Below the pieces are notes generated by a model. The model saw nothing but the letters and a program-made list of their open reading frames with translations, had not been told where the DNA came from and did no database searches. Both the position numbers and the translations under genes were made by a program. From Cymbidium sinense (taxonomy: Eukaryota; Streptophyta; Magnoliopsida; Asparagales; Orchidaceae): DNA of 64,000 nucleotides. Shown piece by piece: positions 26,111 to 64,000 of this stretch; position 1 is the first letter of the stretch; each line of letters opens with the position of its first letter. The stretch spans positions 124,001-188,000 of the forward strand of contig JAKCPB010000350.1 of assembly GCA_021442155.1 (NCBI GenBank), given 5' to 3'.

Positions 26111-26403
26111 TGATTATGGGTTTCAATCATTTGATTTGGAATTGATTTATAATTTGTATTTGAATTGGTAGTTTGGTTTGAGGAAGGAAGCATGGATTGG
26201 GTCTAAGTATATAGAGTAGGCAAGTTTTCCTAAATTCCTAAGGCATGATATATTCTCGTTGCTAATCCTTCTAAGTCCATAACCTTAGGTTAAGTGTTCA
26301 CCTAATCACTAGAAGTGTGTTAACATGAAAGAACTCTTGGTGTCTATAAGAGTCCTAGATCTATGATGAGGAAGTTGAGAACTCACTCCAAAAGTGAGGT
26401 CAA

Positions 26404-26866
26404 TAGGGTTTTTTAGGGTTTAGCATTTAAGGTGTGGGGTTTAGTGTTAGTTTTACGGTTTAGGGTTTAGGATTAGGGTTTAGGATTTAGGGTTTAGGGT
26501 TTAGGGTTTAGTTTTTTTAAAATTAAGTAAACCGATAGGTTTATGTTTATGTAGTTTATTTAGATTATTTTTTACTTATTTTAGTTTATTTAATTTTTTA
26601 TTTTTATTTAGGTATATTTTTTTATTTAGTTTTATTTATTTATTTTAGTTTAGGTTTTTTATTTTAGTTTATTTTTTAGGTTTAGGTTTAAGTTTATGTT
26701 TATTTTTTAGTTTAGTTTTATTTTTATTTTATTTTTTAGGTTTAGGTTTTATTTTTTAGGTTTAGGTTTAGGTTATTATTTAATTTTTTTAGGTTTAGCT
26801 TTTAAGTTCTTATTTTAGGTTTATTTTTAGATTTTTATTTTTATTTTAGGTTTAGGTTTAGTATGA
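26404..26866 (+). repeat. Telomere-like satellite block 5 (short, between two LTR-like copies)
   Basis: About 460 bp: TTTAGGG-rich (26404-26510), landmark AAAATTAAGTAAACC (near 26518), then T-rich phase. It starts exactly after the terminal GAGGTCAA of copy B and ends inside copy C1. The phase order is the same as in the long blocks, so it is one partial satellite unit rather than random filler. Confidence 0.9.
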
Positions 26867-39110: not shown

Positions 39111-40500
39111 GCCTTGGGACTTACTCTTACTTGAGAATAGTGGTGATCCATGTGTTTAGCTAATAAGATGTTAAGGGCATGATCCATCTAGTTAGCTAAG
39201 AGAGGAGAGGGTCTTTAAAGACATGATCCAATCCTCAAAAGTTATGCTAGGGAGAAGAGTCTTGAAATGCTTGATCCTAATCCGTAGTACTTTTACTACT
39301 TAACAGGGGTCACATGGACTTAATCCTATTTAAGTAGTACAAAGAAATGGGGCCTTCAATACATTGATGCCATTTCTTAATTCTTTGGATAGGAAGCCAA
39401 CTGGGGACTTACTCGGGTAGGATGCCGTGAGGGACTTATTCTAGATGATTAGAAAGAATGTGGGACTTATATCTTTTTTAGCTATTAAAATGGGTCATAA
39501 TAACTTGGTCCAATGTAACTCTCCTGTGTAACATAAAAGGGGCCTTGATGGCATAACCCAATCATGTACACAAAAATAGGATGATGAATGGGGACATACT
39601 CCTTGATGATTGGAAAGAATGTCGACTGGGAACTTATATCTTTGTGGCTATTAGAAAGGGGTCATAAAGACTTGATCTAATCTAACTCGCATGTGTACAT
39701 GAAAGGGGCCTTGATGTCATAATCCAGTCATGTACACAAAGGTAGGATGCCGATTGGGAACTTACTCCTAGATGATTAGAAAGAATGTCGGGGACTAATA
39801 TCTTTTGGCTATTAGAAAGGGGTCATAAAGACTTGATCAATCTAACTTGCTTGTGTAACATGAAAGGGCCTTGATCCAATCATGTACACAAAAGTAGGAT
39901 GCCGGGACTTACTCTAGATGATTAGAAAGAATCGACTATGGACTTATATCTTTGGCTATTAGAAAGGGGTCATAAAGACTTGATCCAATCTAACTTGCAC
40001 ATGTAACATGAAAGGGACCTTGATGGCTTAATCTAATCATGTACACAAAGGTAGGATGCCAACTGGGGACTTACTCCTAGATGATTAGAAAGAATGCCGA
40101 TTGTGGACTTATATCTTTCTAGATATTAAAAAGGGGTCATAAAGACTTGATCCAATCTAACTCGCCTATTTAACATGAAAGGACCCTTGATAGCTTGATC
40201 AAATCATGTACACAAAAGTAGGAATGGTGCCATGAAGGGCTTGCTCCAAACCTATGGGAATGGTGCATGATGGCTTACTCCAAACCTCGAAGGGTATGAG
40301 AAAGGTGCCATAGAGGGCTTACTCCCATCTCAAGTCATGCATTGGAAAGGTGCCACAAAGGGCTTGATCCTATCCTACAAGTGATATGGATGAGGAAAAG
40401 GTGTTAAAATAACTTAATTCTTAATGCTCAAAAGTTTTGACTAATAAGCAAGAGTCTAATGAACTCAATGCTTACTTAATTAGTCTAACATGAAGGGTGA
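39111..40500 (-). repeat. Hierarchical tandem repeat: about 158-bp units built of about 40-bp monomers
   Basis: Between 39400 and 40220 a unit recurs with starts near 39417, 39588, 39742, 39896 and 40053. It is marked in order by AGGATGCC...GGACTTACTCC, AGAAAGAATG...GGACTTATATC, AGAAAGGGGTCATAAAGAC and AAAGGGGCCTTGATGGC. These four sub-blocks of about 40 bases resemble each other. On both sides (39111-39400 and 40220-40390) only shorter units with GGTGCCA...GGGCTTGATCC remain. It lies between the integrase end and the LTR-like repeat of the minus-strand element, as tandem repeats do in Tat/Ogre 3' regions. Confidence 0.82.
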
Positions 40501-43600: not shown

Positions 43601-44793
43601 TCTTTATTTCAATGATCACTTGTAGTTCTACTTCTAGCATCCACCTAGAAGCACTTCTTAGGATAGCATCAGATTTAATTCTTAGTTTATGTACAACCAC
43701 ATCAGGATAAACGCATTTCATCATAACTCCAAAAAATAATCTTTATACTCAAAGAGTAAAGTGATTAACTCTTGAGAATCTTAGACCCAAGAGCTAATAA
43801 AAGTAAATTTTGGGTTCTCAGGAGTTCCTAGGTTAACCTCCTTTAATTCATCTATAGTAGATTTTATCTCTTCCTCATATTAAGGAGGTGCATTCTGAAG
43901 TGAATCATCTTTGGATTCCTCCATGGTTTTATGAATGAGTCTTACGGAAGAGTAGAAGAGACTTCAAAGAGTTGATCTATTTGATGATTACTTATCATTA
44001 AACAATGATATCATCAAATGATTCAATGGTACCAAACCAAATGCTAGCTTTGGGTGGAAATTTCTATGTTTTTGATTCCATAAGCTCTCCATGCATTGGG
44101 CTTTATCTTTAGGCCAAACATTTGTGATAAAACCATGTTTCACATAATTCTTTACACAAGTTGAATACCAGTCAAAAGGAAGTTCTATTATTTCATTGAA
44201 AGATGGTTCTTCAAGCTTTACATCTCCTTCTGAGCTTGAAGGATCGGGTAAAGAATAAAATTTTGCTAACCTCCCACTTCTCTTGATAAGTTAGAGCTAC
44301 TTTGACCTAATTGAGATATTTTATTTTGATTTAGAGTCAAAGTTAAAGTGTCCACATATTTTTTAATTTTTCATATGTGGATAGCTCAGACTCTTCCTTT
44401 AATGTTTTAATTTCTTCCTCATCAGAGTTTGATTCTAAGGAAATCTCAAACTTTATTGAAGCATTTCTATGATGGGATACTTCATTTGAGCTGGATTCCA
44501 AATCAATATGAATTATTGGAGGTTCTTTTTCTTTTTCTTTTTCCTCCTTTTCTTTCTTTTCATCTTTCTTGATTATTGTACTTTGTGCTTCAACAATGAT
44601 GGATTTCATAGAATCAAATCTAGGTTTCTTAGGCATGTAGTAAATAGCATCTTCATAGAGCTCAATCACATGAATAGTGAATGGTTGTATATCTCCTTTT
44701 ATGACATATTCTACTCCATCCCTAATGTACTTAATACACTAGTGGAGTGAAGATGGAACCATTCTATACTCATGGATCCAAGGTCTGCCAGCT
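40630..44793 (-). pseudogene. Ty3/Gypsy (Tat-like) pol relic, minus strand: hinge, RT, RNase H, archaeal-type RNase H, integrase
   Basis: Reading the minus strand: the hinge GRPWIHE then MVPSSLH (44789 to about 44735); YEDAIYYMPKK and a charged KEKEEKEKEKE linker (open frame 44669-44343); RT with ACPKDEFPLPIPKLM (near 43500) and the catalytic YIDD at 43236-43225; RNase H with DESLGALLAQTNEEGKE (open frame 42867-42667); archaeal-type RNase H with EVEYEALLLGLELAL and FFGDS (near 42240-42170); integrase with SWPFESWG and IDYFSKWAEA (open frame 41594-41370); C-terminus KFEPTWEGPFVVEKAYEGG (about 40770-40715) and NGHYLKKYYV just before the end. Better preserved than the + relic at 5735 but still full of stops and frameshifts. 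The 5' end is cut exactly at the hinge, where satellite begins; gag and protease are absent. Confidence 0.92.
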
Positions 44794-47030
44794 TTAGGTT
44801 TAGGTTTTTATTTAATTTTTATTTTATTTTATTTTAAGTTTATTTTACTCTTATTTTATGTTTAATTTTATTTTATTTAGGTTTTTTATTCTAGGTTTAT
44901 ATTATTTTTTAGTTTAGTTTAAGTTTTTATTTATTTTATTTTACTTTATTTTTAATTTTTATTTTATTTTATATTTAGGTTTAGGTTTAGTTTTAGTTTT
45001 ATTTTATTTTATTTTATTTTATTTAGGTTTAGGTTTTTTATTTATTTTATTATTAGGATTTTAGGTTTTTAAGGTTTAGGGTTTAGGGTTTAGGGTTTAG
45101 GGTTTTAGGTTTAGGGTTTAGGGTTTAGGGTTAGGGTTTAGGGTTTATAGTTTTAGGTTTAGTGTTTAGGCTTTAGGGTTTAGGGTTGGTTTAGGGTTTA
45201 GTTTTGGTTTAGGGTTAGGTTTTAGTTTTTTAGTTTTAGGGTTAGTTTAGGATTTAGGGTTTAGGGTTTATGGTTAGGGTTAGGGTTTAAGGTTTAAGGT
45301 TTAGGGTTTAGGGTTTAGTGTTTTTTTAATAGTTTAGGGTTTAGGTTTAGAAATTAGGATTTGGGGTTTAGGGTTTAGGTTTTAAGGTAAGTTTGTAGGT
45401 TTAGGTTTATTTTATTTATATTTTTTAGTTTTATTTAGTATAGTTTATTTATTTTAGGTTTATTTATTTTAGTTTAGGTTTTATTTTAGTTTATTTTTTT
45501 GGTTTAGGTTTAGGTTTATGTTTATTTTTTAGTTTAGTTTTGTTTTTATTTTATTTTTTAGGTTTAAGTTTTATTTTTTATTTTTAGGTTTAGGTTTAGG
45601 TTTTTATTTTATTTTTTTAGGTATAGGTTTTAGGTTTTTATTTTAGGTTTTATTTCTTAGTCTAGGTTTAGGTTTATTTTTCATCTATTTTATTTTATTT
45701 AGTTTAGGGTTTAGGTTTAAGTTTATTTTATTTTGTTTATTTTAGGTTTAAGTTTTAGTTTATTTTCTTTTATTTTATATTTTTATGTTTTAGTTTAGGT
45801 TTTTATTTTATTTTATTTTTTATTTTATTTAGGTTTAGGTTTTTAGGTTTTTAGGGTTTATGGTTTAGGGTTTAGGGTTTGGGTTTAAGGTTTAGGGTTT
45901 AGGGTTTAGGGTTTAGGTTTGTAGGTTTTAGGGTTTAGGGTTTAGGGTTTAGGGTTTAGCTTTTAGTTTAGGGTTTTAGGGTTTAGGGTTTACGATTTAC
46001 GGTTTAGGGTGTAGGGTGTAGGGTTTAGGGTTTTAAGGTTTAGGGTTTAGGGTTTAGGATTGTAGGTTTAGGGTTAAGGGTTTAGGGTTTAGGGTTTAAG
46101 TTTAGGGTTTAGGTTAGGGTTATTTTATTTTTAATTTATTTTATTTATTTATTTTTTAATTAAGTAAACTCATAGGTTTAGGTTTATTTTATTTATTTAG
46201 TTTATTTTATTTTTTTATTTTATTTAGGTTTATTTTTATTTTTTGTCGATTTAGTTTATTTATTTTAGGTTTATTTATTTTAGTTTAGGTTTTTTTATTT
46301 TAGTTTATTTTTTATGTTTAGGTTTAGGTTTATTTTTTATTTTAGTTATATTATTATTGTATTTTTTAAGGTTTAGGTTTTATTTTTTATTTGTAGGTTT
46401 ATGTTTAGGTTTTTAATTTATTTTTTAGGTTTAGGTTTAGGTTTTATTTTAGGTTTATTTTAGGTTTATTTTTTAGTTTGGTTTAGGTTTAGGTTTTATT
46501 TATTTTAGTTTCATTTATTTTAGTTTAGGTTTAGGTTTATTTTATTTTTATTTTAGGTTTAGTTTTTTTTTTAATTTAGGATTTAAGTTTTTTTTTTATT
46601 TGTAGGTTTATTATTTAGGTTTAAGCTTTTATTTAGTTTCTATTTTATTTAATTTTAGGCTTATTTTATTTTTATTTTAGGTTTGTTTTTAATTTATTTA
46701 GATTTTTTATTTTTTATGGTTTTGTTTAGATTATTATTTATTTTATTTTATTTTGGCATTTATTTTTTAATTTTATTTTTTTAAGTTTAGGCTTAAGTTT
46801 TGGTTTAGGTTGATGTTTATGTTTTTTTTGCATTAGGTTTTTTATTTTATATATTTTTAAGTTTTATTTTGCTTAGGTTTATTTTTTTGGTTTTTAGGGT
46901 TTAGGGTTTAGGGTCATTTCAGGTTTTAAGGTTTAGGGTTTAATATTTTAGGGGTTAGGGTTTAGGGTATAGTGTTTAAGGTTTAGGTTTTAGGCTCAAT
47001 GTTTAGGTTTTAGTTTAGGGTTTTGGGATT
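44794..47030 (+). repeat. Telomere-like satellite block 6a
   Basis: T-rich phase (44794-45060), a regular TTTAGGG run (45070-45370), a short degenerate landmark (AAGGTAAGTTTG near 45385), T-rich phase (45410-45840), TTTAGGG-rich (45850-46110), landmark AATTAAGTAAACTC (46157), T-rich phase (46180-46890) and a TTTAGGG-rich end. This is about two and a half higher-order units. Confidence 0.93.
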
Positions 47031-47492
47031 ATTATTTTTTTAATAAAGAACAAATTCAGATTCAACATTTCTTTTGTTCAATTTCATCAACCAAGTAACA
47101 CAACAAGTTTTTTAATACACAAGCGATGACATAGATAAAAAATGAGTATGTATAGAACAAATCAAAAACCCTAGATAACTAAAACTAACTCTACTGTAAA
47201 GATACATTTTCATAAGCGGCCGGATCATCGTTGTTCTTATTCTCTCCATCGAACCACCGACCTCTCTCGTGTAATGGGATCCACCATCATATCCCCAATC
47301 TCTCCCTTTGCCACCACCATGGATGTTACCTCGGTTGCTCCTCCTGCCTCCATAACCACCACTGCTCTGACCACCACCTCCATATCCACCACCCACCGAG
47401 ATCTCCCACCCTTTGTGATGTCCTCTCTGCCATTACCATGATCTAGACTAAGCAGTTGGGTGATGTTCCCAGTCAAGGTTCTACCCATTCTT
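47031..47492 (-). pseudogene. GRP7/8-type glycine-rich RNA-binding protein fragment, copy 2 (best preserved)
   Basis: On the minus strand it starts AATGGGTAGAACCTTGACTG (47490 down), which with one stop and one frameshift corresponds to the RRM end NGQNLDGRNIT..., and continues towards SRS. Then comes a glycine-rich tail reading GGGYGGGGQSSGGYGG and GRDWGYDGGSHYTR within an open frame at 47396-47112. The real protein should end soon after a NNDDP-like stretch that is read in another frame; the ORF runs on into 3' UTR. The UTR carries TCTTTACAGTAGAG and CATCGCTTGTGTATTAAAAAA, and ends in TTCTTTATTAAAAAAA, an A-rich end. Clock-regulated GRP7/8 proteins bind RNA through an N-terminal RRM, which is lost here, so this is a 5'-truncated retrocopy or captured last exon. 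Confidence 0.87.
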
Positions 47493-50400
47493 AGGGTTTA
47501 GGTTTATTAGGTTTTGGGTTTCAATTTATTTTTTTAATTTATTTAGTTACTTTAGGTTGGGTTAGGTTTGGGTTTAGGGTTAGTTTAGGGTTTAGGTTTA
47601 GGTTTAGGGTTTATTCTTTTAGTGTTTAGGTTTAGGGATATAGTTTAGGTTTAGGTTTTAGGGTTTAGGGTTTAGGGTTTAGGGTTTAGGGTTTAGGGTT
47701 TAGTGTTTATTTAGGGTTTAGGTTTTGAGTTTAGGGTTTAGGGTTTAGTAAGGTTAGCTTAGGGTTAGTTTAGGGTTTAGCTTTAGGTTTAGGTTTTAGG
47801 GTTTAGTTTTAGGTTAGTTTAGGGTTTAGGATTTAGGGTTTAAGGTTTAGGGTTTAAATTTTAGGGTTAAAATTAGGTTTAAGTTTAGAGTTTAGGGTTT
47901 AGGGTTGTAGGTTTAAGGTTTAGGGTTTAGGGTTTAAGGTTTAGGTTTAGGATTTAGGGTTTAGGGCTTAAGGTGTGGGTTTTAAAAAAAAAAATTAAGA
48001 AAACTAGTAGATTTAGGTTTATTTAGTTTATTTAGTTTATTTTTTATTCATTTTAGTTTATTTTATTTTTAAATTTTTCTTTAGGTTTATGTTTTATTAT
48101 TATTTAGTTTAGTGTATTTATTTTAGTTTTGGTTTTTTTGTTTTAGTTTATTTTTTAAGTTTAGGTTTAGGTTTATGTTTAATTTTTAGTTTAGTTTTAT
48201 TTTTATTTTATTTTTTTAATTTTAGGTTTTATTTTGTATTTTTAGGTTTAGGTTTAGGTTTTATTTTATTTTTTTTAGGTTTATGTCTTAGGTCTTTATT
48301 TTAGGTTTACTTTTAGCTTTTATTTTTTTAGTTTAGGTTTAGATTTATTTTTAGTTTATTTTATTTTATTTAGTTTAGGTTTAAGTTTAGGTTTATTTAT
48401 TTTATTTTAGTTTATTTTAGTTTAGGTTTTTTTAGTTTAGGGTTTAGGTTTTATATTTTATTTATTTTTAGGTTTAAGTTTTTATTTAATTTTTATTTTA
48501 TTTAATTTTAGGTTTATTTTTTTTATTTTTTGGTTTAGATTTTATTTTATTTAGGTTTATTTTTTTTTTTAAGTTTAGGTTCTTATTTATTTTATTTTAG
48601 TTTAGTTGTTATTTTTATTATTATATTTTTAGGTTAATGTTTAGGTTTAGGTTTTATTTTATTTAGGTTAAGTTTTTTATTTATTTTATTTTTAAGTTTT
48701 ATTTAGTTAGAGTTTTAGGTTTTTAGGGTGTAAGGTTTAGGGTTTAGGGTTTGGGGTTTAGGGTTTAAGGTTTAGGGTTTAGGGTTTAAGGTTTAGGGTT
48801 TAGTGTTTAGGGTTTAGGGCTTAGGGTTTTAAGGTTTAGGGTTTAGGGTTGTAGGTTTAGTTCAGTTGAAGGTTTAGGGTTTAGGGTTAGTTTTAGGGTT
48901 TAAGTCTAGTTTTTTTTAGGTTATATTTATTTTATTTTAGTTTATTTTAGTTTAAGTTTAGGTTTATTTTATTTTTATTTTAGTGCTTAAGTTTTATTTT
49001 TTATTTATTTTTAGGTTTTATTTTAGGTTTATTTTAAGCTTTAGGTTTTATTTAGTTTTATTTTATTTTATTTTGATTTTTTTAGTTTACATTAGTTTTA
49101 TTTTATTTAGGTTTTTTTTGTTGTTAGGTTTATTTTATTTTTTAGTTTAGTTTTTTTATTTATTTTATTTTATTTTTTATTTATTTATTTTTTTTTAGGT
49201 TTAGATTTAGGTTTAAGTTTAGGTTTTAGTTTAGGTTTTTATTTTATTTTATTTTTTTATTTTATTTAGGTTAAGTTATTTAGTTATTTTATTTTTAGGT
49301 TTTATTTAATCTAGGATTATTTTTTTAGGTTTTTATGTTTTTAGGGTTTATTGTTTATGGTTTAGAGTTTTAGGGTTTTAGGGTTTTAGGGTTTAGGGTT
49401 TTGAGCTTAGGGTTTAGGCTTTAAGGTTTAGGGTTTAGAGTTGTAGGTTTAGGTTGGGTTGGTTTGGGGTTTAGTTTAGGTTTTTTTTAAGATTTTTTTT
49501 AAAATTTTTTTATTTTTATATTTTTTAATTAAGTAAACTCATAGGTTTAGGTTTATTTAGTTTATTTATTATTTAGTTTAGTTTATTTTTTATTTTTACT
49601 TAGGTTGATTTTTATTTATATTTAGTTTAATTTATTTATTTTAGGTTTATTTATTTGCATTTAGGTTATTTATTTATTTTATTTAGGTTTAGGTTTAGGT
49701 TTATTTTTTTAGTTTATTTTTTATTATATATTTTTTGTTTAGTTTATTTTTTATTTTTTAGATTTAGGTTTAGGTTTTAGGTTTTATTTTAGGATTATTT
49801 TTTGGGTTTTATTTTAGTTTATTTTAGGTTTATTTTTTAGTTCATTTTATTTTATTTAGGGTTTTGGTTTAGGTTTAGGTCAGTTTATTTTAGGTTTAGT
49901 TTTAGGGTTTTATTTATTTTAGTTTAGTTTATTTTAGTTTAGGCTTAGGTTTATTTTATTTTTATTTTAGGTTTAGGTATTTTTTTAGGGTTTAAGTTTA
50001 TTTTTATTTATTTTTGTTTTATTTTGTTATTTTTTAGGTTTAGGTTTTATTTAGTTTTATTTTATTTTATTTTTTGTTTATTTTATTTTTTTCATTTAGT
50101 TTTTATTTTATTGAGGTTTTTTATTTTTTTAGTTTATCTTAGGTTTTTATTTATTTTATTTTAGATTATATTTTTATTTTTTATTTTATTTTATTTTTAG
50201 GTTTAGGTTAAAGTTTTAGTTTATGTTTTTATTCTATTGTATTTTCATAATTTGTTTAGGTTTAGGTTTTTTTATTTATTTTTATTTTTAGAATTTATTT
50301 AGTTTTGGTTTAGGTTATTAGGTTTTTAAGATTCAGGGATTACAGTTCAAGGTTTAGGATTTAGTGTTTGGGGTTTAGGGTTTATAGTTTTAGGGTTGTT

Positions 50401-50566
50401 GGTTTAGGGTTTTGGGTTTAGAGTTTATGGTTAGTTTTAGGGTTTAGGGTTTAAGACTAAGGTTTTTTTATTTTATTTTTTATTTTTTTATTTTTAGGGT
50501 TTAGGGTTTAGGGTTTAAGTTTTAGGTTTAGGGTTCAGGTTTTAGTTTAGGATTTAAGATTTTTGG
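47493..50566 (+). repeat. Telomere-like satellite block 6b
   Basis: It begins with the linker shared by all GRP copies (TTTATTTTTTTAATTTATTT...GTTACTTTAGG, about 47525-47556), then long TTTAGGG-rich DNA (47560-47980), landmark AAATTAAGAAAACT (47990), T-rich phase, TTTAGGG (48720-48900), T-rich, TTTAGGG (49330-49480), landmark AATTAAGTAAACTC (49528), T-rich, TTTAGGG (50330-50560). About three units. Confidence 0.93.
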
Positions 50567-51010
50567 TTTTTTTTAATAAAGAATAAATTTAGATTCAATA
50601 TTTCTTTTTTTTTAATTTCATCAACCAAGTAACACACCAAGTTTTCTAAGACACAGCGATGACATGGATAAAAGTGAGCACGTATAAAGCAAATCAAAAA
50701 CCCATCTAGAATCATCTCTGTAAAGGCAGTTCCATAAGCGGAGATTAGATTGTTTTAATTTCTCTAGTTCCCATCAAAACAACCCCACCTCTATAGCATG
50801 ATCCACCATCATATCTCGATCTCTCCCTCCATAACCATGGTTTAACCTCCGTCTACTCCCACCTCCATAACCACCACCTTTCGACCACCATCTCTCCATA
50901 TCACCACCTCAGATCCACCACCACCCTGATAATCGCCTCCTCCTTCTCCAACGTTAGATCTAGGCGAGCACGGTTGGTGTGATGTTCTCATCAAGGTTTT
51001 ACCCATTCTT
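50567..51010 (-). pseudogene. GRP7/8-type glycine-rich RNA-binding protein fragment, copy 3
   Basis: Same start (AAGAATGGGTAAAACCTTGA on minus), same glycine-rich tail (GGTGGTTATGGAGGTGGGAG; GGGAGAGATCGAGATATG) and same 3' UTR (CATCGCTGTGTCTTAGAAAAC, GTTACTTGGTTGATGAAATT) as copy 2. It ends in TTCTTTATTAAAAAAAACC. Several frameshifts; no useful reading frame remains. The A-rich end is at the low-coordinate side, directly in contact with satellite. Confidence 0.85.
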
Positions 51011-52375
51011 TGGGTTTAGGTTTAGGTTTATATTTATTAGGTTTTAGGGTTTAGGTTTATTTTTTAATCTATTTAGTTACTTAGGTTTAGATTTAGGGTT
51101 TGGGGTTTAGGGTTTAGGGTTACATGTTTAGGTTTAGGGTTTAGGGTTTAGGGTTTAGAGTTTAGGGTTTTAAGGTTTATGCTTTTAGGGTTTAGGGTTA
51201 GGGTTTACAGTTTAGGGTTTAGGGTTTAGGGTTGTAGGTTTAGTGTTGTAAGTTTAGGGTTAGTTTTAGGGTTTAGGGTTTAGGGTTTATGGTTTCTGGT
51301 TTAGGATATAGGGTTTATGTTTACGTTTATTTAGTTTTATTTATTTATTTTAGTTTATTTTATTTTTTTGTTTTTATTTAGGTTTATTTTTTGTTTTTAT
51401 TTAATTTAGTTTATTTATTTTAGTTTAGTTTTTTTTATTTTAATTTATTTTTTAGGTTTAGGTATACATTTAGGTTTTTTTTAGTTGAGTTTTATTTTTA
51501 TTTTATTTTTTAGGTTTAAGTTTTTAGGTTTTAGGGTTTAGGGTTTAGGGTTTATGGTTTAGGGTTTTAAGGTTTAGGATTTTAGGGTTTAGGGTTTAAG
51601 GTTAGGGTTTAGGGTTTAGAGTTTAGGGTTTAGTTTTAGGCTTTAGGGTTTAGGGTTTTAGGGTTTAGGGTTTAGGGTTTAGGTTTGTAGGTTTAGTGTT
51701 GTAGGTTTAGGTTTAGGGTTAGCTTTAGGGTTTTAGGTTTAGGGTTTAGGGTTTAGGATTTAGGGTTTATAGTTTTTTTTTAAATTAAGTAATCCCTTAG
51801 GTCTAGGTTTATTTAATTTACTTAGTTTATTTTTTATTTATTTATTTTATTTTATTTTTTATTTATATTTAGGTTTATTTTTTATTTTTATTTATTTTAT
51901 TTATTTATTTTAGGTTTATTTATTTTAGTTTGGGATTTTAATTTTAATTTAATTTTTAGGATTAGGTTTTGGTTTAGGTTTATTTTTTAGTTGAGTTTTA
52001 TTTTTATTTTATTTTTTAAGTTTTTAGGATTTTAGGATTTAGGGATTAGGGTTTAGGATTTTAGGGTTTAGGGTTTAGTTAGGTTGGTTTAGGGTTTAGT
52101 TTAGGGTTTAGGGTTTAGGGTTTAGGGTTTTGGGTTTTGGGTTTTGGGTTTAGGGTTTTGGGTTTTACGGTTTTTTGATTTTAGCATTTAGGGTTTAGGG
52201 TTTAGGGTCTAGGGTTATATTTAGTGTTTAGGGTTTATTTATTTATTTTTTAAAAATTTTATTTATTTATTTATTATTATTATTATTATTTTTATTTTTA
52301 GGGTTTAGAGTTTAGGGTTTAGGTTTTAGGTTTTAGGTTTAGGTTTCAAGTTTTTGTTTAGGGTTTTTTGGTTTG
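51011..52375 (+). repeat. Telomere-like satellite block 6c
   Basis: The shared post-GRP linker is at about 51056-51086. Then come TTTAGGG-rich DNA (51090-51310), a short T-rich insert (51320-51510), TTTAGGG-rich DNA (51520-51770), a landmark variant AAATTAAGTAATCC (51783), T-rich phase (51800-52020) and TTTAGGG-rich DNA with a (TTA)n-like patch near 52260-52290. Confidence 0.92.
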
Positions 52376-52750
52376 GTTTTCTTTAGAGTCAAATTGATTC
52401 AAGATTTCTTCTATTGATTTCATCAACCAAGTAACACCATGTTTTTAAGACATAGTGACAACATTGATAAAAAATGCACATAGAAAATAAAACCCTAGAT
52501 AATTAGAAGTGTCTATAGACACTTTCCATAGTATCTCGGATTCTTGGTGTCTCCCAGTTCCCATTATAACCACCTCGACCTCTCGGTAGCGATCACCATC
52601 ATAGATCTCTCCTCACCACCATTGTAACCATCGCCTCTCCACCACCACTCACCACCACCTCTAGATCCCCACCACCATTGATGCAGCACCTCCTTCAACT
52701 CCATCCTTGACTCTAAACTGGTTGAGTGATGTTCCCAGGTTGCCCATTCT
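52376..52750 (-). pseudogene. GRP7/8-type glycine-rich RNA-binding protein fragment, copy 4 (most eroded)
   Basis: It is shorter than copies 2 and 3 through internal deletions, but has the same borders: AAGAATGGGCAACC at the high end, then GGGAACATCACTCAACCAG (minus strand), glycine codons (GGTGGTGGTGAG...GGTGGTGGAGAGG) and the UTR phrases CATAGTATC and TTGGTTGATGAAATC. The A-rich end is nearly lost (AAAGAAAACC). Confidence 0.78.
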
Positions 52751-53775
52751 TAGAGTTTAGGTTTAGGTTTTGGTTTTTTAGGTTTTAAGGTTTAGGTTTA
52801 TTTTTTCTAGTTTATTTAGTTACTTTAGGTTTAGGTTTAGGGTTTTGAGTTAGGGTTCAGGGTTTAGGCTTACGGCTTAGTGTTTAGGATTTAGGATTTA
52901 GGGTTTAGGGTTTAAGGTTTAGGGTTTTAATATTTATGCTTTGAGGGTTTAGGGTTTAAGGTTAAGGTTTATGGTTTAGGGTTTGGGGTTTCTGGTTTCT
53001 TAGGGTTTAGGGTTTAAGGTTTAGGGTTGTAGGTTTAGTGTTGGAGGTTTAGGGTTTAAGGTTTAGGGTTTAGGGTTTAGGGTTTAGGATTTAGGGTTTA
53101 AGGTTTCTTTAAAAAAAAATTAATAAACTGGAAGGTTTAGGTTTATTTAGTTTATTTTTTATTTATTTTAGCTTATTTTATATTTTATTTTTATTTAGGT
53201 TTATTTTTTAGGTTTCGGTTTAGTTTTTAGTTGAGTTTTATTTTTATTTTATTTTTTAGGTTTAGGTTTTAGGTTTTTATTTTAGGTTTATTTTTAACTT
53301 GTATTTTTTAGTTTATGTTTAGGTTTATTTTATTTAGTGTAGGTTTAGGTTAAGGTTTAGTTTCTTTTAGGTTTAGTTTTTGGTTTTATTTATTTTAGTT
53401 TAGTTTATTTTGGTTTAGGTTCAGGTTTATTTTATTTTATTTTTATTTTAGGTTTAGGTTTTATTTTTTAGTTTTATTTTTAGTTTTATTTTTTAGGTTT
53501 AGGTTTTTATTTAGTTTTTATTTTATTTTATTTTATTTAACATTTAGTTCTTATCTTATTTAGGTTTTATATTCTTAGGTTTATTTTATATTTTTAGTTT
53601 AGTTTAGGTTTTTATTTATTTTATTTTAGTTTATATTTATTTTTTATTTTATTTTAATTTTAGGTTTAGGTTTAGGTTTTCGTTTAGGTTTATAGTTTAG
53701 GGTTTAACGTTTTAGGGTTTAGGGTTTATGGTTTAGTGTTTAGGCTTTCGACTTTAGGGTTTTTAGGGTATAGGA
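52751..53775 (+). repeat. Telomere-like satellite block 6d
   Basis: Shared post-GRP linker (about 52797-52828), TTTAGGG-rich DNA (52830-53110), landmark AAATTAATAAACTGG (53117), T-rich phase to about 53690 and a TTTAGGG-rich end cut by the poly(A) end of the L1. Confidence 0.92.
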
Positions 53776-54930
53776 TTTTTTTTGTTAAAAAGAGAATTTT
53801 TATTACCAAAAGAAAAGGATACAACATCCTTAAAGGGGATAAATCTCAAAGACTATTACTCAAAACTCTGGAAAGACATAAAGAAAAATCCCTAACTAAT
53901 AAAGAAAACAAAACAAAAGGAAAACTAAGAAAATAACAACAACAACCGAATCCACTGAGCGGTCGAGATACCACTGAAGAGACCAAGAGCAAACAAAGGA
54001 AACTGCAAGAAAAACTAAAGCAGAGATAAACACAATTAAAAGAAAATAAATAGAGATAAAGAAGGAAGAAAAGCAAAAGAAAAGGCTCTCAATCCAAACA
54101 TTAGAAGGGGCAACAAAACTTTTGCGACGACAAAATCGAAAGGAGGTTCTGATCACAAAAAAGCTACAACCAATAGAAAAGAGTAAACATCCTAGCCATC
54201 ATAACCAACGAACCTCACAAAGGCACCCAAGCACACACCAATAACTAGCAAAGATCTAGAACCACCAAAAAAAAGAAGAACAACAATGAGCCACCAAAGG
54301 GGCAACAATCGGAAAAATTGAGATAACAAAAAAATATTCCAAAGATACGACCATCCAACCACCCAAAAGTAGTTGGAGTAAGAAAAGTCACTAACCAATG
54401 AAGAGGAAATACCGAAATAGAAGAGGTGAAGAGAAGCAACCAACAAGCTCATCAACTCAGGCAGACTAAAAGCAACCAAGAAAGACCTGACCACCAACCA
54501 AAAAAGTAATAACAGAACCACCAAAGCCATAAAGGAAAGCATACACCAAAAAACCAAATAACCAACTAGCTAAAAGGAAATAAAGGAAGAAAGCACAATA
54601 AACATCACATCTAGAAGGCACACAAAACCAGGAAGCTCAAGGAACCACAAAGCCACCAAAGAAAGCCAATCAACCAACAAAACCAAATAAATAAACCACA
54701 AGAGATACCACTATAAAAGTAGGACAATTGACAAAGACAACCAAAACAGAAGCATTCCAACTTGTAAAATATAAGAATAAAAGAACAAAATGGAAGAACA
54801 GAGAACCAATAGTAAGAACAAACCAAAACCACGAAGCTCTAAATAGAAGCCCCAAGAAAACCACCAACAGAAAAGAAAGATTAAAAAACTAAGAAAATCT
54901 AACATAAGGAAAATCAAATTTATCTAAATT
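53776..54930 (-). other. 3' UTR of the L1 element
   Basis: T/G-rich on the minus strand, with TTGGTGG and TTTTGG words, ending in the poly(A) tail. Several hydrophobic open frames (53846-54076, 53896-54156, 54192-54557, 54611-54917) arise from this composition. They look like membrane proteins, but they overlap one another in different frames and show no family motif. The 3' fragment at 15521-16840 has the same character. Confidence 0.65.
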
Positions 54931-55079
54931 AGATAACCCTCTTAATTGCTTACGAATATTTTCATTGGTAAAAAAAATGTAAAATCAGAGATTACACCAG
55001 AACCTAAGAAATCTCATAAGCATTACTACTCTTAAAATATGATTAATTTTAAAAGAAAGTTTTGAGATAATAGGTTTAT

Positions 55080-58000
55080 TTTTCTAATTAAATAAAAAAG
55101 CTCACCATTACCCTTATGGTTAGAATTGATCATAACAACAACCATTTCAGCATCAAATTCCAACCAAATAGTATGAAAATTTCCATCCAAACAAAGCTTA
55201 AGAGCATGATAACAATCATCAATTCAGCAAAAATAACAAAATTAGTAGAGAGGGGTGGAAAAAAACCAAGATAATATTCCCAAGATTATTTATAAAAAAA
55301 ATCCCACCACATACTTGTTCTTTTTGCAATAGAGCCATCGATTAATTTTAATACAATAATTAAGAGGCTTAATCAATGAATAATTTTATAATGGAGATGA
55401 GTCACAATAAGGAAAACCAATACCCAATTTAGAGGCAAAAACTTTACAACCTTTAAAATTAGTACCAGAAGAGCGAATATAAAAAAATCATATCTTTAGT
55501 CCTACCAATAATCCTCTTATGATTCATAGGCACATTGATGCTTAGCATCATTTATGTCAACCAAATAAACCAATTCAAAGTAACAACCACCACAATTTTG
55601 ATATGCCCTTTAATATATTAAGAAAATAAAGTCAAGAAGTTGCATTAAGTTAAATTGCCATTAAAACAACTTAATTTAAATAAATCCTCATACCAACCCC
55701 AAACTAGAGGCAATGGACACTATTAATAAAAACATGACTAATATTCTCAATATGAAAGCAACACATGCATTTAGAGGGTAGATAAAATCCTTTGTCCAAA
55801 GTAAAGAATCAACAATAATATAATCCCTTAAAATTCTCCACAAAATAATAGAATAAGAAATATGAATAATATTATTCCAAATTTTAAAGAAAATAGGAGA
55901 AGAGGATTTTTTTAACTCTAATATAGTGCCAAGTATCTTTAAAAGATAAATTCTCCATTACTAGAAATTTTGAAAAGAATTTGATCTAGAAAATAACCAT
56001 CAATAGGAATATTGATGATGTTATTACTAATAAAATCAGGAATCAAATCATTTAAAAGAGAGAAATTCCATTCACCATTATAAATAAAATGACTAACTGT
56101 CAAAGAAGAAGTAGAGTGAGTATTAAGCAAAGAATCAATGGAAAAAATCCCCATCCGGTTATCTTGCCAAAAGAAGAAGATCCATTATTAATACCCCAAA
56201 AATGAGAGGTTTCACTTTCCATTTAATATCCGTTTCCAAACAATTAAGTCACCATGTTTATGATTGCAAATTAAAGGATGCTTACCTTTGCAATATTTAA
56301 ATTTCATGAATTTTGCTCAGAGACTTTCATTTTTTTGAAAATTTCACCAAAGTTTTTAAGAAAAAACATTGGTGGAATCCATCATAGATATGCACCCAAT
56401 ACCACCTTCATAAATAGTACCACACATATTAGACCAAGAATCTAATGAGCCTTTTGGCCAATTCCTAGAGCCCCAAATAAACTTATTAAAGTCTTTCAAT
56501 CGATAAAACATGAGAAGTAGGAACAATATTAAGTAAAAGGAAGAGAGTAATGAATACTTTTAATAATAATTAATCTACCAAAAAGATAAAAATGAAATTC
56601 AAACGTAGAAATTTTACTTTGAATATTATGAATTACCTCATCAAAGAGATGGGATCTCTTATGGCCACAATATAAAGGGGAGCCTAAATATTAATTGGAA
56701 GATTTTGATGTGAAAAACTAGTGATATCATTTATTTTATTAATTCTATGAAAACAAATAGAAGTAGAAGTGATTAAAAAACTTTTATGAGAACTAATCAA
56801 TAGGCCACTTTCCTTTTTAAATTTATTTAAAAAATCCTTAAGCTTTTTAACATAATGTAATGAGCCATTACAAAAAATTATGAAATCATCAGCAAAGCTT
56901 AAGTGAGAGATAGCCAAACCACCAAGATTCTTGAAATACATACTAGAATTCTTCTAAAAAATGATTAAGCCAATGAGACAAATATTCAAATGCAATAATA
57001 AAAGTGATGGAGAGGGCCACCTTGTCTTATACCTTGAGAGAATTAAAGAAACCAAAGTTTTCACCATTGATAACTAATGAAAACCAAACATTTCTAATTA
57101 TATTGTTAACCAAAGAAACAAAATGATTAGAAAAAACCAAATAAAGTAAGAATGCTATTAAGAAAATCCCAAGAAATGTTATCATAAGCTTTGGTGATGT
57201 CAAGCTTAAAAGTAAATTTCCACCTCTAATTTTAACATTCAAATCATGAATCAATTCTTGAGTAAGCATGTTATCAAATAGTTCTACCTTTCTCAAAGCT
57301 AGTTTGATTGGAGAGATAATCTTAGGAAGAAAATTACTATGCCTATTAGTCAAAATTTTAGAAATCAATTTATTAAAAAAAGTCAAAGACTAATAGGTCT
57401 AAAGTCATTCAAAAGTTAGATTATCTTTCTTAGAATAAGAACAATAGAAGTGCTAGTAAAATATTTAGAATAGAATTCCCTTGAAGAAAATCCTTAACAA
57501 CATTAACAAGATCAATTTTAATAATAAACCAAGATTTTGATAGAATAAAGTAGTGTAACCATCCGGCCTTGCAACAGAATCATCATTCATACCATTAAGA
57601 GTATTAAAAATTTCCTCATCAAAGGAGGAGCAACCAAGCCTTAGTAGACATAATAGAAGGGATGATAGAGGTTGGATAAGTGCTCAAGTTGATAATTTTT
57701 TAAAAGATCTTTAAAATAATTAGAGCAGAAGAAAATATATCCTCTTTTTCGGTAAGCCAAGAACCATCAAAGTTCTTGATTTTATGAATGTGAACTATTC
57801 TTTTCATTACCAAAGTATAAAAATATTTAGTGTTTCTTTCCCCATAGAAAGATGTTTAGAGGTAGTTTTTGTCTCCAATAAGTCTCCTCCATATCACGAA
57901 ACTTAATGAGATTATCTTTTGCTTGACAATATTAGAATAGAAAAAGACTTAGTAATAACAAGTTCTTCCAAATCTTTCACCTTTTGTTCCATATTCTTGA

Positions 58001-58860
58001 TATTATCAAATAGAATTTTAAATAGTTTTTGTTCCACCAAGTGATAGTACGCTTAAGCCTTTTAAGCTTAAGCCAAAATCTCATCATGCCAAATGTAGAA
58101 TCATCTGGAGAAAGAGGAGCACACCAATTATAAGCAATAACATCAAGAAAACTTTTATCTTGTAACCACATATTTTGAAAACAAAAAATTTTAATGACAT
58201 TATTATTATGAATAGCATCCTTAATAGAAATCAAAAGGAGCATGATCCAAGAGAGTTCTACTAAGATGCTCCACTGAAGTTGAAGGCCAATAATTTAACA
58301 AATAATTATTAAATAAAGCATGATCCAACCGTTGCCATAATTTATGATTATTCCAAGTAAATTAAGAACCAATGAAACCAACATCATGAAGATTACAATC
58401 CAAAATCATATTTGCAAAATCTTCCATTGAATGTAAATTTGGCAAAGAACCCCTTTCCTTTCATTCAAAGAAAGGATCATATCGAAATCCCCACCAGCAA
58501 TCCAAGAATCATTAATAACAGAAGCAAAATTAGAAAATTGATCCCAAGGAATTATCCTCTCCAACTTGTTACAAGTAGAATAAACAAAAGAGTCAAAACC
58601 ATGATAATCACCAAATGAAATATCCACATTAATAACTTGATGAAAATCATTAACAACATTAATAGAAATAGAATTATTCCAAAATAACCAAATCTTATTA
58701 TTGCTATTGAAATAAAAATCAATCATCCCGGACATATGCATTATTTTAGAATAAAAAAATAAGAGATTCAAGAATAACCAAGAAACCAACATTATAAATT
58801 CTATGAAGATTCTTAATTCAATTTCTAATAGCAAGAGTACTAATGCCCCTCACATTTTAA
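55080..58860 (-). pseudogene. L1 ORF2 relic: endonuclease, reverse transcriptase, zf-RVT region, RNase H
   Basis: From the 5' side (minus strand): an endonuclease start resembling NVRGIST (about 58850), WIAGGDFDMILSLNERKG (58510-58440), FTWNNHKLWQRLDHALFNN (about 58350-58300) and LLDHAPF (about 58240); the linker FQNMWLQDKSFLDV and LKRLKRTITWWNK (58243-57977); RT with ISKILTNRHSNFLPKIISP and FDNMLTQELIHDLN (57386-57230) and the catalytic FADD in LSFADDFIIFC (near 56885); zf-RVT-type sequence around MGIFSIDSLL (56154-55939); RNase H with EFDAEMVVVMINSNHKG (about 55175-55120). All the domains expected of plant L1 ORF2 are present in order but in shifting frames, so no active protein is made. 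Confidence 0.87.
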
Positions 58861-58869
58861 ATAAGAAAG

Positions 58870-60400
58870 TTAAACATTAATTTTTATTAGGCAAAGAAGA
58901 TGAAGAAGATCGAGTGGATCTAGAAGCTTTAGAAGGATAATTTTTAAACTTTTTTTTTCCTTTTCACAAAAATAGTTTGAAAACTGGTCTCATTCTCCAT
59001 GGATTCATCCTCAAAAAAAATTTTGCATCACTATTAATAATAGATTTAGGAGAAGATCCCATTTGACAAGAAGATAAATCCTTTTTCTCCATTAAATGAG
59101 AATTATCACTAAGTAAAATACCATCTAGAATAACAGTTAAGGAAGGGGCAGAAACATATTTATTAAGCAAACAAACACATGGCTGCACATTATCAATAAG
59201 CTCCATACCATCATTCTTGCCCAAATTCAATAAAGATAAAACAAGATTTTCTTTTAAAGATTTTTGAGGCTAAATAATAGAGACATTTTCTATAAGAATT
59301 TCAGTAATTTATCACAAATCTCCTTAGAATCATAAACTAAAATAGGAAAATTATCCACTTACAAATTTTTAGGAATAACATAAATAATAGCAGTCGAAAC
59401 CTGATTACTCTACAAAATAGTTTTAGAAGCATTTTTAACAAGCTTATCACTACCACTTACATTGGGAATAGCATTAGAAACATTAGGAACAACATTAGAA
59501 AAATCAACAATTTCATTCACAACACCATTATCCTATTCATTTAAAGCAGAATTTCTTTTATGACTTTTTAAATCTCCAATTTTGCCAACAACCTTAAGAT
59601 CTTTAACCACTTTATTTCAAAGATGTTGATGAGTAACAAAACATTCAGACACATCATCGCCATGAGTTTTACAATGATTGTAGAAAATAATGAAGTTTTC
59701 AAACTTGACCTTCTAGAATATCCATATTTCTTAGATCCAATCCACACCTCCTTAGGAAATTTCTTTGTTACATCAATTTCAATAAGGATCCAAGCAACCG
59801 ATGACCTGGATTTGGCTGCGATTGCTTGATCAATTTACAAAGGTCTACCAAGAATAGAACCCACAACATGCAAGAATTGATAATTAACAAAGTGAACCCA
59901 AAGATTAGGTAAAGATAACTAAACCGATGCTATAAGAGATTCCTCTTTAATGTTAAAAAAATGGAGTCCATTTAAGAATATGTATTTGATTGTTTTTAAC
60001 ATAACAAGATCGATGAACCAAGATATGACTATAATCAATGTCATTAGATAATTTGATCAGCACATGTCTACCATCCAAGAAACCAATAAAAAGAACACCA
60101 GAAAGTTACAAGTCATGGAAGAAAAACTAAATTTCTTCTTTACTAGGATGCTGAAAAGAAAATTTTCCAATCAAAGTATATGCATAAGGCTAGTTTTTGT
60201 ATCAAGTCGAGCACATATTGGAACACCTTTGGAGGTCATATGAACCAAGTTTAAAGAAAGATCAAAAGAAGTTGAAGAATCCTTACCAGATAAGGCATCT
60301 TTGTAGGACTTAGAGGTAAAAGGTTTAGCTATACCCAAAGAATCAGAAGCCTAAGTTGGAGCAGTTAGGGAATTTGGTTTTCCCTAAGTATTCACAGAAC
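58870..60400 (-). pseudogene. L1 ORF1 relic (DUF4283-type, CCHC knuckle)
   Basis: This is the nucleic-acid-binding protein of plant L1 elements. Minus-strand frames give SKGVPICARLDTK (about 60235-60195), VHFVNYQFLHVVGSILGRPL (about 59900-59840), SVAWILIEIDVTKKFPKEVWIGSKKYGY (about 59800-59715) and a knuckle-like CKTHGDDVSEC (about 59680-59645). This matches the DUF4283 then zinc-knuckle order. A charged tail with SRSTRSSSSS (about 58920-58890) ends just before ORF2. Frames are interrupted repeatedly. The window 58964-59230 is the longest open part and has no domain of its own. Confidence 0.8.
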
Positions 60401-60594
60401 CTAATGCCTTGTCAAATGGAGCCACTTAAAAATTGAATAAGGATTGGCTAAAGGCTGAAGATTCGGAGCTGAACCAGAATAAATTTTTGGAAAACCAACC
60501 CATAAATAAGGGTTATTAGTTTTTAGTTATTATGGAGTTTTAATTTTATTTTTTATTATTTTAGTTTATGGGTTTTAGATTTTTTTTATTAGTT

Positions 60595-60611
60595 TGGGGG
60601 GGGGGGGGGTT
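60595..60611 (+). repeat. Homopolymer G-run 1
   Basis: An uninterrupted run of about 15 G in T-rich DNA (after TTAGTTTG). It may be real slippage expansion of a TTTAGGG-like unit or a sequencing or assembly error. Confidence 0.8.
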
Positions 60612-60756
60612 TAAGGATTAGCTTTTTTTATAGTTTTATTAAGTTAGGTTTTTTGTGTTTTATTTAGTTTTTTTATTAGTTTTTATTTTTTATTATTTAT
60701 TTTTAATAATTTAGTAATTTTAGTTTTTTAGGGTTTGCCTTTAGGTTTAGTTTTAA

Positions 60757-60783
60757 GAGGGTGGGGGGGGGGGGTGGGGGGGT
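60757..60783 (+). repeat. Homopolymer G-run 2 (interrupted)
   Basis: GGGTGGG, then about 13 G, one T and a further G7. Four or more G-tracts within 30 bases satisfy the usual G-quadruplex pattern. Same caution about homopolymer error as for run 1. Confidence 0.8.
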
Positions 60784-63700
60784 TATGTTTTAATATTGGG
60801 TTTAGGTTTTGTTTTTTAGTTTTTCTATTTTGGTTTATTTTTTAGGGTTTACGTTTTATTAATATTTTATTAGGGTTTTAATTTAGTTTTAGTCTATAGT
60901 TATTTAGTTTTAGTTTTAGTTTTATTATTTTTTAGGTTTTAGTTTTAGTTGGGAGGGTGGGTTAGTTTATTTTTTAGTTTTTATGTTTGGGGGTTTAGGG
61001 TTTTAGGTTTAGGGTTGTAGGTTTAGGGTTTGTTTTAGGGTTTAGGATTTAGTGTTTAGGGTTTAATTTTTTTTTTAAATTACATAAAATGATATGATTA
61101 GGTTTATTTAGCTTATTTAGTTAATTTTATATTTTTATTTAGGGTTAAATTTCATTTTTATTTATTTTAATTTATTTATTTTACATTTATTTATTTTAGT
61201 TTATGTTTTTTATTTTAGTTTATTTTTTAGGTTTAGGTTTAGGTTTAGGTTTATGTTTATTTTCTAGTTTAGTTTTATTTTTATATTACTTTTTAGGTTT
61301 AGGTTTTATTTTTAATTATTAGGTTTAGGGTTTAGGTTTTATTTAGGTATAGGTTTAGGTTTTCATTTTATTTTTTTAGGTTTATGTTTTAAGTTTTTAT
61401 TTTAGGTTTATTTTTAGGTTTTATTTTTTTAGTTTAGGTTTAGGTATATTTTTAGTTTATTTTATTTTATTTAGTTTAGGGTTTAGGTTTAGTTTTATTT
61501 AGGTTTAGGAGGTTTTATTTAATTTATTTTAGGTTTAGGTTTATTTTATTATGTGTATTTTAGGTTTAGGTTTTTTTTAAGATTGAGTTTAGGTTTTATT
61601 TTTTAAAATATTTTTAGGTTTTATTTTTAAGTTTATTTTTTTACATTTAGTTTTTTATTTTGTTTTATTTAATTTAATTTTTGGTTTATTTAATTTTAAT
61701 TTTACCTTTTGGTTTGATTTTATTTAGGTTTTTTATTTTTAGGTTTATTTTATTTTTTAGTTTAGTTTAGTTTTCTATTTCCTTTTTTATTTTAGTTTTT
61801 ATTTTTTATTTTATTTTATTTTTAGGTTAAGGTTTAGGTTTTAGTTTAGGTTTTTATTTTATTTTATTTTATTTAGGTTTAAATTTTTTAATTTATTTTA
61901 TTTTAGGTTTGATTTAGTTTAGGTTTAGGTTTTATTTAGTTTTAGTGTAGGTTTTTAGTTTTTTAGGGTTTAAGTTTAAGGTTTAGGGTTTAGGGTTTGG
62001 GGTTTAGGGTTTAGGGTAGTAGGTTTTAGGGTTTAGGGTTTAAGGCCTAGGGAATGTGGTTTAGGGTTTAGGTTTGTAGGTTTTAGGTGTCAGGTTTTAG
62101 GGTTTAGTGTTTAGTGTTTAGGGTTTATGATTTTGGGTTTTAGGATTCAGGTTTGTAGGTTTATGGTTTATGGTTTATGGTTTAAGGTTTAGGGCTAGTT
62201 TTAGGGCTTACGGTTCATGGTTATGGTTTATTTTAATTTATTTTTTTATATTTTTTAAATTAAGTAAATTGGTAGGTTTCTATTTATTTAGTTTATTTTT
62301 GATTTATTTTAGTTTATTTTACTTTAATTTTCATTTAATTTTTTTGATTTTTTTTATTTTAATTTTTTTATTTTACCTTTATTTATTTTCGTTTAGGTAA
62401 TTTATTTTAGTTTATTTTTAGGTTTAGGTTTAGGTTTAGGTTTATTTTTTAGTTTAGTTTTATATTTATTTTATTTGTTAGGCTTAGGTTTTATTTTTTA
62501 TTTTTAGGTTTAGGTTTAGGTTTTTATTTTAGTTTTATATGATTAGGTTTTAGGTTTTTATTTTAGGTTTATTTTTAGGTTTTATTTTTTAGTTTAGGTT
62601 TAGGTTTATCTTTAGTTTATTTTGTTTTATGTAGTTTAGGTTTAGGTTTAGGTTTAGTTTATTTTAGGTTTAGGTTTAAGTTTATTTTATTTTAGTTCAT
62701 TTTATTTTAATTAGGTTTAGATTCATTTTATTTTTATTTTATTTATATTTTAGGTTTAGGTTTTTTTTAGTTTAGGGTTTAGGTATTTATTTATTTATTT
62801 TTAGGTATATTTTTTAAGTTTAAGTTTTTATTTAATTTTATTTTATTATGTTTTAGCTTAATTTTATTTTTTTATTTTAGGTTTAGTTTTTATTTTATTT
62901 AAGTTTTTTATTCTTAGGTTTATTATATTTATTAGTTTAGCTTAGGTTTTTATTTATTTATTTTTAGTTTATTTTTATTTTTTTCCTTTATTTTTTTTTT
63001 TAGGTTTAGGTTATAGTTTTGGTTTTCACTTTATTTTATTATTTTATTTTATTTAGGCTTAGGTTTTTTTATTTATTTTATTTTTAAGTTTTATTTAGTT
63101 TAGGTTTAGGTTTTTGGATTTTTTGAGTTGAGAGTTTAGGTTTAGGGTTTAGGGTGTAGGGTTTAGGGTTTAGAGTTTAAGGTTTTAGGGTTTAGGGTTT
63201 TAAGGTGTAGGTTTACAATTTAGGGTTTAGGGTTCAATGTTTAGGCTTTAGGGTTTAGGTTTTTAAGGTTTAGGGTTTAAGGTTAGCTTATGGTTTAAGG
63301 TTTAGAGTTTTATGATTTATGGTTTAGAGTTTAGGGTCTAGGGTTAGGGTTATGGTTTACAGTTTAGGGTTTAGGTTTTAGGGTTTAGGGTTTATGATTT
63401 AGGGTTTAGGGTTAGTTTAGGGTTTAAGGTTAATTTTAGGGTTTAGGGTTTAGGATTTAGTGTTTAGGTTTAAGGGATTAGGGATTAGGGTTTTCTTTTT
63501 TTTTAAAAAAAAATATGTAAATCGGTAGGCTTAGGTTTATTTATTTTATTTAGTTTTTTTTTATATTTTTCTTTTGGTTTATTCATTATTTTTTACTTAG
63601 TTTAGTTTATTTATTTTATATTTATATATTTTAGTTAAGGTTTTTTATTTTACTCTATTTTTAAGGTTTCTATTTAAGTTTATGTTTACTTTTTAGTTCA

Positions 63701-64000
63701 GTTTTCTTTTTATTTTTATTTTTTAGGTTTATATTTTATCTTTTATTTTGAGGTTTAGGTTTAGGTTTTTATATTATTTTTTTTAGGTTTAATTCTAGGT
63801 TTTTATTTTAGGTTTATTTTTTTGTTTATTTTAGGTTTCTATTTTTAGGTTTGTTTATTTTAGTTTAGTTTAGTTTATATTTAGGTTTACTTTATCTTGT
63901 TAGATTTGGGTTTAGGTTTTTTTTGAAAAAAAAATTTAAGGTTTAGGTTTTATTTTTTATTTATTAGGTTTAGGTTTTTATTTAATTTATTTTAGTTTAG

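Follow-up and report, generated by a model that had tools for sequence, protein, structure and literature searches.

The 3′ end of a host gene for a glycine-rich RNA-binding protein of the GRP7/8 type (GRP) recurs five times inside a degenerate, telomere-like TTTAGGG satellite of the orchid Cymbidium sinense. The stretch that we analysed, hereafter the window, comprises 64,000 bases (assembly GCA_021442155.1, contig JAKCPB010000350.1, positions 124,001 to 188,000). We consider it probable that a GRP7/8 mRNA was retrocopied, inserted once in the satellite, duplicated together with the satellite monomer and then left to decay. Composition segmentation, trained on hand-picked plus-strand stretches, assigns about 29% of the window (18,635 of 64,000 bases) to the satellite. 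Since TTTAGGG occurs 329 times on the plus strand and only 3 times on the minus strand, the satellite lies in one orientation. All five GRP copies have their sense strand on the minus strand, i.e. opposite to TTTAGGG, as the original prediction had stated for four of them.

The four long copies (c13, c47, c50 and c52; Table 1), which that prediction had named, were recovered by nhmmer and by alignment with a common 5′ border, a common orientation and a common linker. The nhmmer model was built from these same four copies, which score 296–382 bits, and it also revealed a fifth, partial copy of 73 bases (c2, E 1e-6). The long copies run from the last part of the RRM, the only part of this domain that is present, through the glycine-rich tail and the stop region into about 200 nt of presumed 3′ untranslated region (3′UTR). 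Their 5′ border is identical in all four and lies close to the Met-Asn-Gly that precedes the last strand of the RRM. The A-tract comprises 11 A in c2, where it corresponds to the T run at 1947–1957, 8 in c50 and 7 in c47, and is broken in c52. The A-rich 3′ end reported earlier for three of the four copies is thus correct if the broken tract of c52 is counted. The spacing is about 3.5 kb between c47 and c50 and about 1.8 kb between c50 and c52.

Frameshift-aware alignment showed frameshifts in all four long copies and in-frame stops in c47 and c50; mutually, the copies are 58–75% identical. A coding function was rejected on the grounds of the frameshifts and stops, and a duplication introduced by the assembly on the grounds of the mutual identity. 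Because of this identity and the frameshifts, the copies are old and non-coding. They are passengers, with neither the role of a protein gene nor evidence of function.

For the assignment to GRPs, a search with an Arabidopsis GRP7 sequence scored 7987 candidates and gave 2480 plant proteins at E 1e-25, of which the best 120 were used. P0092, the best of the 120 when ranked on c47 and c50, served for the alignments of the copies. Against P0092 the frameshift-aware scores are 107, 179, 167 and 98 (here and below in the order c13, c47, c50, c52), compared with maxima of 60, 66, 60 and 69 among 20 base shuffles each. The opposite strand scores 24–30 and the reversed sequence 81, 119, 92 and 75. 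When no best protein is selected, the true copy exceeds its reversal for 119, 119, 117 and 115 of the 120 proteins, with median scores of 98, 142, 137 and 98 for the true and 77, 117, 91 and 80 for the reversed sequence. Since the reversed copies score high but the true order is preferred, it becomes clear that glycine composition explains much of the score and that residue order adds to it. Both c47 and c50 align from MNGQ-LDG, around the Met-Asn-Gly of the border, to a GYDGGSRYSRG...DGNWRN-like carboxy terminus, and their non-glycine ends (LDG-NIT..QSR and GYDGGSRYSRG..DGNWRN) fit in order. Copy c52 aligns to a GRP in part, and c13 in the tail alone with the two proteins whose alignments were inspected. 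A glycine-rich or simple sequence that imitates a GRP by coincidence would account for the high reversed medians, glycine codons being common, and for the lack of matches in Pfam and in a direct protein search. This explanation is, however, largely contradicted already by the ordered non-glycine ends of c47 and c50 and by the 115–119 of 120 GRPs that favour the true order in each copy, and we regard it as highly improbable. Outside plants, a GRP 3′UTR word found one match among viral contigs, in a phage-like contig, which was taken as chance, and none of 205 pattern matches to GRP relatives in viral contigs was confirmed. Among prokaryote genomes 123 GRP relatives were confirmed, of which 80, bacterial or from metagenome-assembled genomes by title, were kept and not used further.

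Each of the four long copies adjoins a linker with the motif AGTTAC (TGTTAC in c13). A hidden Markov model (HMM) built from the four sites finds them again at E 2e-5 to 2e-4 and detects no linker elsewhere in the window, the next matches having E values of 6.2 and 8. As the model was trained on these sites, the independent evidence lies in the lack of further matches and in a pattern count: with up to 3 mismatches the pattern occurs at 3 sites, c52 being missed, whereas 0 are expected by chance. Because the 5′ border is common to all four copies and the linker is exclusive to GRP copies, one capture and subsequent multiplication with the satellite is supported, and one insertion, amplified afterwards, is the best reading of the copies. 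Of the earlier proposal of one retrocopy or last-exon capture, the single captured 3′ fragment is supported, and the two routes are not separated here. The motif [LM]DG[RK]xIT is found in 120 of the 120 best-ranked GRPs, and a residue is missing at this site in the alignments of c47, c50 and c52. A common deletion of one arginine codon was considered as proof of a single origin and dropped, as a recount gave shortenings of unequal length; the shortening of the LDGR stretch in all four copies is only suggestive of a single origin. Pairwise Kimura two-parameter (K2P) distances of the GRP body range from 0.31 to 0.63, and the closest pair is c13 and c47, which lie 33 kb apart.

The flanks of the copies were scored against other satellite windows (2,591–3,595 per test). 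At 0–100 bp on the linker side, the fraction of background placements is no higher than 0.003 for 9 of 12 ordered pairs and 0.047–0.098 for the other three, and for whole flanks of 300 bp another GRP copy is the best match in four of four cases (one tied). For the A-tract side the corresponding counts at the 0.05 level are 3 of 20 ordered pairs at 0–100 bp and 6 of 20 at 100–200 bp. Copies c50 and c52 have their left, A-tract-side flank in common for 100–200 bp: none of 3401 background windows scores as high at 100 bp in either direction, and 10 and 0 of 3131 do at 200 bp. In addition, TTTTTGG stands directly beside the A-tract or within six bases of it in c2, c50 and c52, which represent three of its 19 occurrences in the satellite; this was noticed post hoc. 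Because out-of-register satellite aligns equally well or better, we do not count the alignments that extend over about 4 kb across the GRP copies as proof of a unit. We read the flank pattern as one monomer that was duplicated within the array and whose simple repeats were later turned over.

A retrocopy is favoured because of the 5′ truncation, the 3′UTR and the A-tract, which together are the shape of a retrocopy made by a long interspersed nuclear element (LINE). A GRP7/8-type mRNA would have been reverse-transcribed from its poly(A) tail, with LINE machinery of the plant itself as the probable agent. The cDNA, whose 5′ truncation falls late in the RRM, would then have entered a TTTAGGG block of the satellite in a single insertion; given the orientation of the copies, its first strand would extend the TTTAGGG strand from a TTTAGGGTTT end. 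The satellite monomer, recognisable by an AT linker of its own, would subsequently have been duplicated several times by the recombination that constantly rearranges tandem repeats, through unequal crossing over or circle reinsertion. Afterwards the array would have been cut up by other DNA while the copies decayed by mutation. Such LINE-mediated retrocopying is likely. Direct observation covers the identity of the fragment, its common 5′ border and orientation, the exclusive linker and the decay; the single insertion, the RNA intermediate, the LINE as agent and the type of recombination are inferred.

Several observations weigh against this scenario. Copy c13 lacks an A-tract, and a target-site duplication is not recognisable, as both flanks consist of telomere-like repeats. 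The literature consulted mentions an intron in GRP7 without assigning it to a place in the protein. Hints of intron positions conflict, P0003 suggesting one after LDGRNIT and P0012, through its odd second half, one before RSRGFGF. Compared with the codon pattern of GRPs, the LDGR stretch is shortened unequally, by net 2, 3, 7 and 9 bases in c47, c50, c13 and c52. The alignment and tree suggested with the original prediction gave the distances reported above, and the GRP quartet is weakly resolved (15, 10 and 8 sites with a 2:2 pattern). The relationship to plant GRP7/8, borne out by frameshift-aware alignment, is not mirrored by the 106-amino-acid open reading frame (ORF) of c47, which has no match in Pfam at E 0.1 and none in a protein search at E 0.01 among 11 candidates. 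Whole flanks on the linker side find their best match at another GRP copy in just one of four cases at 600 bp and again at 1000 bp, and those on the A-tract side in none of five at 300, 600 or 1000 bp. Next to the linker the flanks are thus in register for about 100–300 bp, and next to the A-tract only weakly so, which speaks against a clean repeat unit. The earlier idea that the copies multiplied as components of a satellite unit with related flanks holds near the linker; on the side of the A-tract, the flanks neither refute it nor bear it out. Because of the unequal LDGR shortenings and the short linker-side register, we slightly lowered our confidence in the retrocopy and single insertion, which we still consider probable, and gave a little more weight to the following two alternatives.

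A possible, although clearly less probable, origin is the capture of genomic DNA, in which double-strand-break repair or a Helitron-like element brought the last exon of a GRP gene, with its 3′UTR and a downstream A-rich stretch, into the satellite, where it was amplified. The fragment may fall wholly in the last exon. Of the features examined, the A-tract alone calls for an RNA intermediate, and this tract is short (7–11 A). On the other hand, the 3′ border lies at the A-tract after a 3′UTR-like stretch and the 5′ border inside the coding sequence, which is the usual shape of a 5′-truncated retrocopy. Rather unlikely, in our view, is a composite retroposon similar to SVA elements, a unit of telomere repeat, linker, GRP tail and poly(A) that was transcribed and re-inserted repeatedly in TTTAGGG blocks by means of the GRP polyadenylation signal. 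It predicts a constant 3′ end and an unrelated outer flank, and the register is indeed weaker beyond the A-tract than on the 5′ (linker) side; moreover, the register fades past about 300 bp, as variable 5′ truncation would cause, and the A-tracts vary in length. Yet c50 and c52 have the flank on the A-tract side in common, TTTTTGG stands next to the A-tract in each of c2, c50 and c52, and all five copies share one orientation within the satellite.

The LINE-mediated insertion may also have taken place at a living chromosome end. There the poly(A) tail would have annealed to a ...TTTAGGGTTT-3′ overhang, which a LINE reverse transcriptase then extended, and telomerase would have gone back to adding TTTAGGG once the truncated cDNA was in place. 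The orientation fits such end priming and target-primed insertion alike and does not separate them if all copies stem from one event; we rate the capture at an end no likelier than the composite retroposon. If it were true, the array would be a fossil telomere that records endonuclease-free retrotransposition and was later internalised and amplified.

The satellite forms 11 stretches when GRP copies count as breaks, with other DNA between them. According to the block map, TTTAGGG blocks (66–490 bp) alternate with AT blocks (88–1009 bp) of the TTTAGG/TTTATTTTA type. These arrays are present in a form broken up by other DNA. A second conserved non-telomeric module, approximately TTTTAAAATTAAGTAAACTGGTAGGTTTAGG, occurs at or close to points where a TTTAGGG block gives way to an AT block, and this AT block often starts with similar ordered sequence. 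The motif HMM, built from six of them, places 12 such junction sites at or near block borders with E below 0.005 (Table 1). A higher-order repeat deduced from the presence or absence of this motif was dropped, as some motif-less junctions look like decayed motifs. The array without a GRP copy contains G runs of 14 (60596–60609) and 12 (60763–60774), which are unusual in AT-rich surroundings. A separate tandem array with a period of 167 bp (39417–40223; five copies, 80% matches) lies outside the telomere-like satellite.

Table 1. Positions of the GRP copies, linkers, satellite stretches and junction sites in the window.
Feature	Position	Strand	Evidence
GRP copy c2, end of the 3′UTR alone, rest missing, other DNA from about 2025	1952–2024	-	nhmmer, 22.5 bits
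GRP copy c13, common 5′ border, without A-tract	13860–14257	-	nhmmer, 316 bits
GRP copy c47, longest, 7-A tract, frameshifts, in-frame stop	47035–47495	-	nhmmer, 382 bits
GRP copy c50, 8-A tract, frameshifts, in-frame stops	50567–51013	-	nhmmer, 377 bits
GRP copy c52, most diverged, several deletions, broken A-tract	52377–52753	-	nhmmer, 296 bits
Linker adjoining c13	14297–14330	+	linker HMM, E 1.8e-5 (training sequence)
Linker adjoining c47	47523–47556	+	linker HMM, E 1.5e-4 (training sequence)
Linker adjoining c50	51053–51085	+	linker HMM, E 2.6e-5 (training sequence)
Linker adjoining c52	52799–52829	+	linker HMM, E 1e-4 (training sequence)
Satellite stretch with alternating TTTAGGG and AT blocks	1–1955	+	segmentation, block map
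Satellite stretch around c13	11592–15529	+	segmentation, block map
Satellite stretch, AT block	17611–18465	+	segmentation, block map
Satellite stretch	20086–20674	+	segmentation, block map
Satellite stretch	26403–26859	+	segmentation, block map
Satellite stretch with c47, c50 and c52	44790–53780	+	segmentation, block map
Satellite stretch without GRP copy	60507–63997	+	segmentation, block map, nhmmer
Junction motif TTTTTTTAAAAATTAAGTAAACTGGAAGGTTTAGG, at or near border of TTTAGGG block and AT block	14605–14641	+	motif HMM
Junction module sites	123–158, 12935–12968, 14605–14641, 20165–20200, 26512–26545, 46149–46184		motif HMM
Junction module sites, continued	47991–48019, 49520–49553, 51774–51809, 53107–53143, 62254–62279, 63501–63537		motif HMM

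LINE-like sequence is also found among the DNA between the satellite stretches. The LINE-like ORF at 18641–19042 has 65 relatives with E ≤ 1e-20, some of which carry an exonuclease-endonuclease domain; the five with an organism name are all from orchids (Dendrobium and Apostasia; 66–77% identity). Its own match to Exo_endo_phos is below the Pfam cut-off. A (TTG)9 stretch at 17579–17606 adjoins the satellite. The insertion at 53781–60506 gives the impression of being LINE-like, but three of its ORFs have no match in Pfam. It has eight T at the satellite border, and an element on the minus strand would share the orientation of the GRP copies. Across ten ORFs of the window Pfam returned no family above cut-off, and neither Rfam at gathering scores nor a tRNA scan of the window gave a match. 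Terminal repeats were sought in six inserted stretches by comparing their ends over up to 2500 bases or half the length, and none was present at E 1e-5. As for orchid telomeres, the part of a review available to us describes Arabidopsis-type repeats in Dendrobium and Phalaenopsis (PMC9498494), and an excerpt of the Vanilla genome paper gives ATTAGGG as the repeat used, which speaks against a general rule for orchids (PMC13340410).

Processed pseudogenes and LINE-mediated retrocopies are characterised by 5′ truncation, a 3′UTR, an A-tract and decay. The GRP copies resemble them in all of these features and differ in having multiplied later with a satellite and in lacking a recognisable target-site duplication. 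To our knowledge, the known seeds of satellites are mostly simple repeats, ribosomal DNA or transposon pieces.

Transposon pieces have been described as seeds in Lathyrus, where, according to the sections consulted, satellites arose from tandem repeats within retrotransposons (PMC7004042). There, too, non-satellite sequence joins an expanding tandem array, but its source is the DNA of long terminal repeat retrotransposons rather than a fragment of a host mRNA. Interstitial TTTAGGG-type repeats, as summarised for Pinus in the portion of a review at hand, lie away from telomeres and, like the satellite described here, are mixed with AT-rich sequence; that portion names no amplified module of genic origin within them. 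Cycas has megabase-sized blocks of telomeric variants at non-telomeric places (PMC9827991), for which the passages seen report repeats and their variants only and no gene module.

In the open-access literature, with most subscription literature outside the scope, no paper combined telomere-like, satellite and glycine-rich RNA-binding, and none of the matches listed, judged by title and the start of the abstract, described a gene fragment amplified in a telomere-like satellite. Examples of retrocopies, of interstitial telomeric repeats and of satellites grown from foreign seeds are on record, and the GRP satellite is a variation on these phenomena.

Once fixed in a telomere-like satellite, the 3′ end of a host gene provides a datable, non-repetitive marker in otherwise featureless repeats, which allows one to trace how such arrays duplicate, homogenise and break up. 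For genome annotation it calls for caution, as GRP-like matches in such arrays can be decayed passengers. Dead gene copies, in turn, can become building blocks of chromosome repeats.

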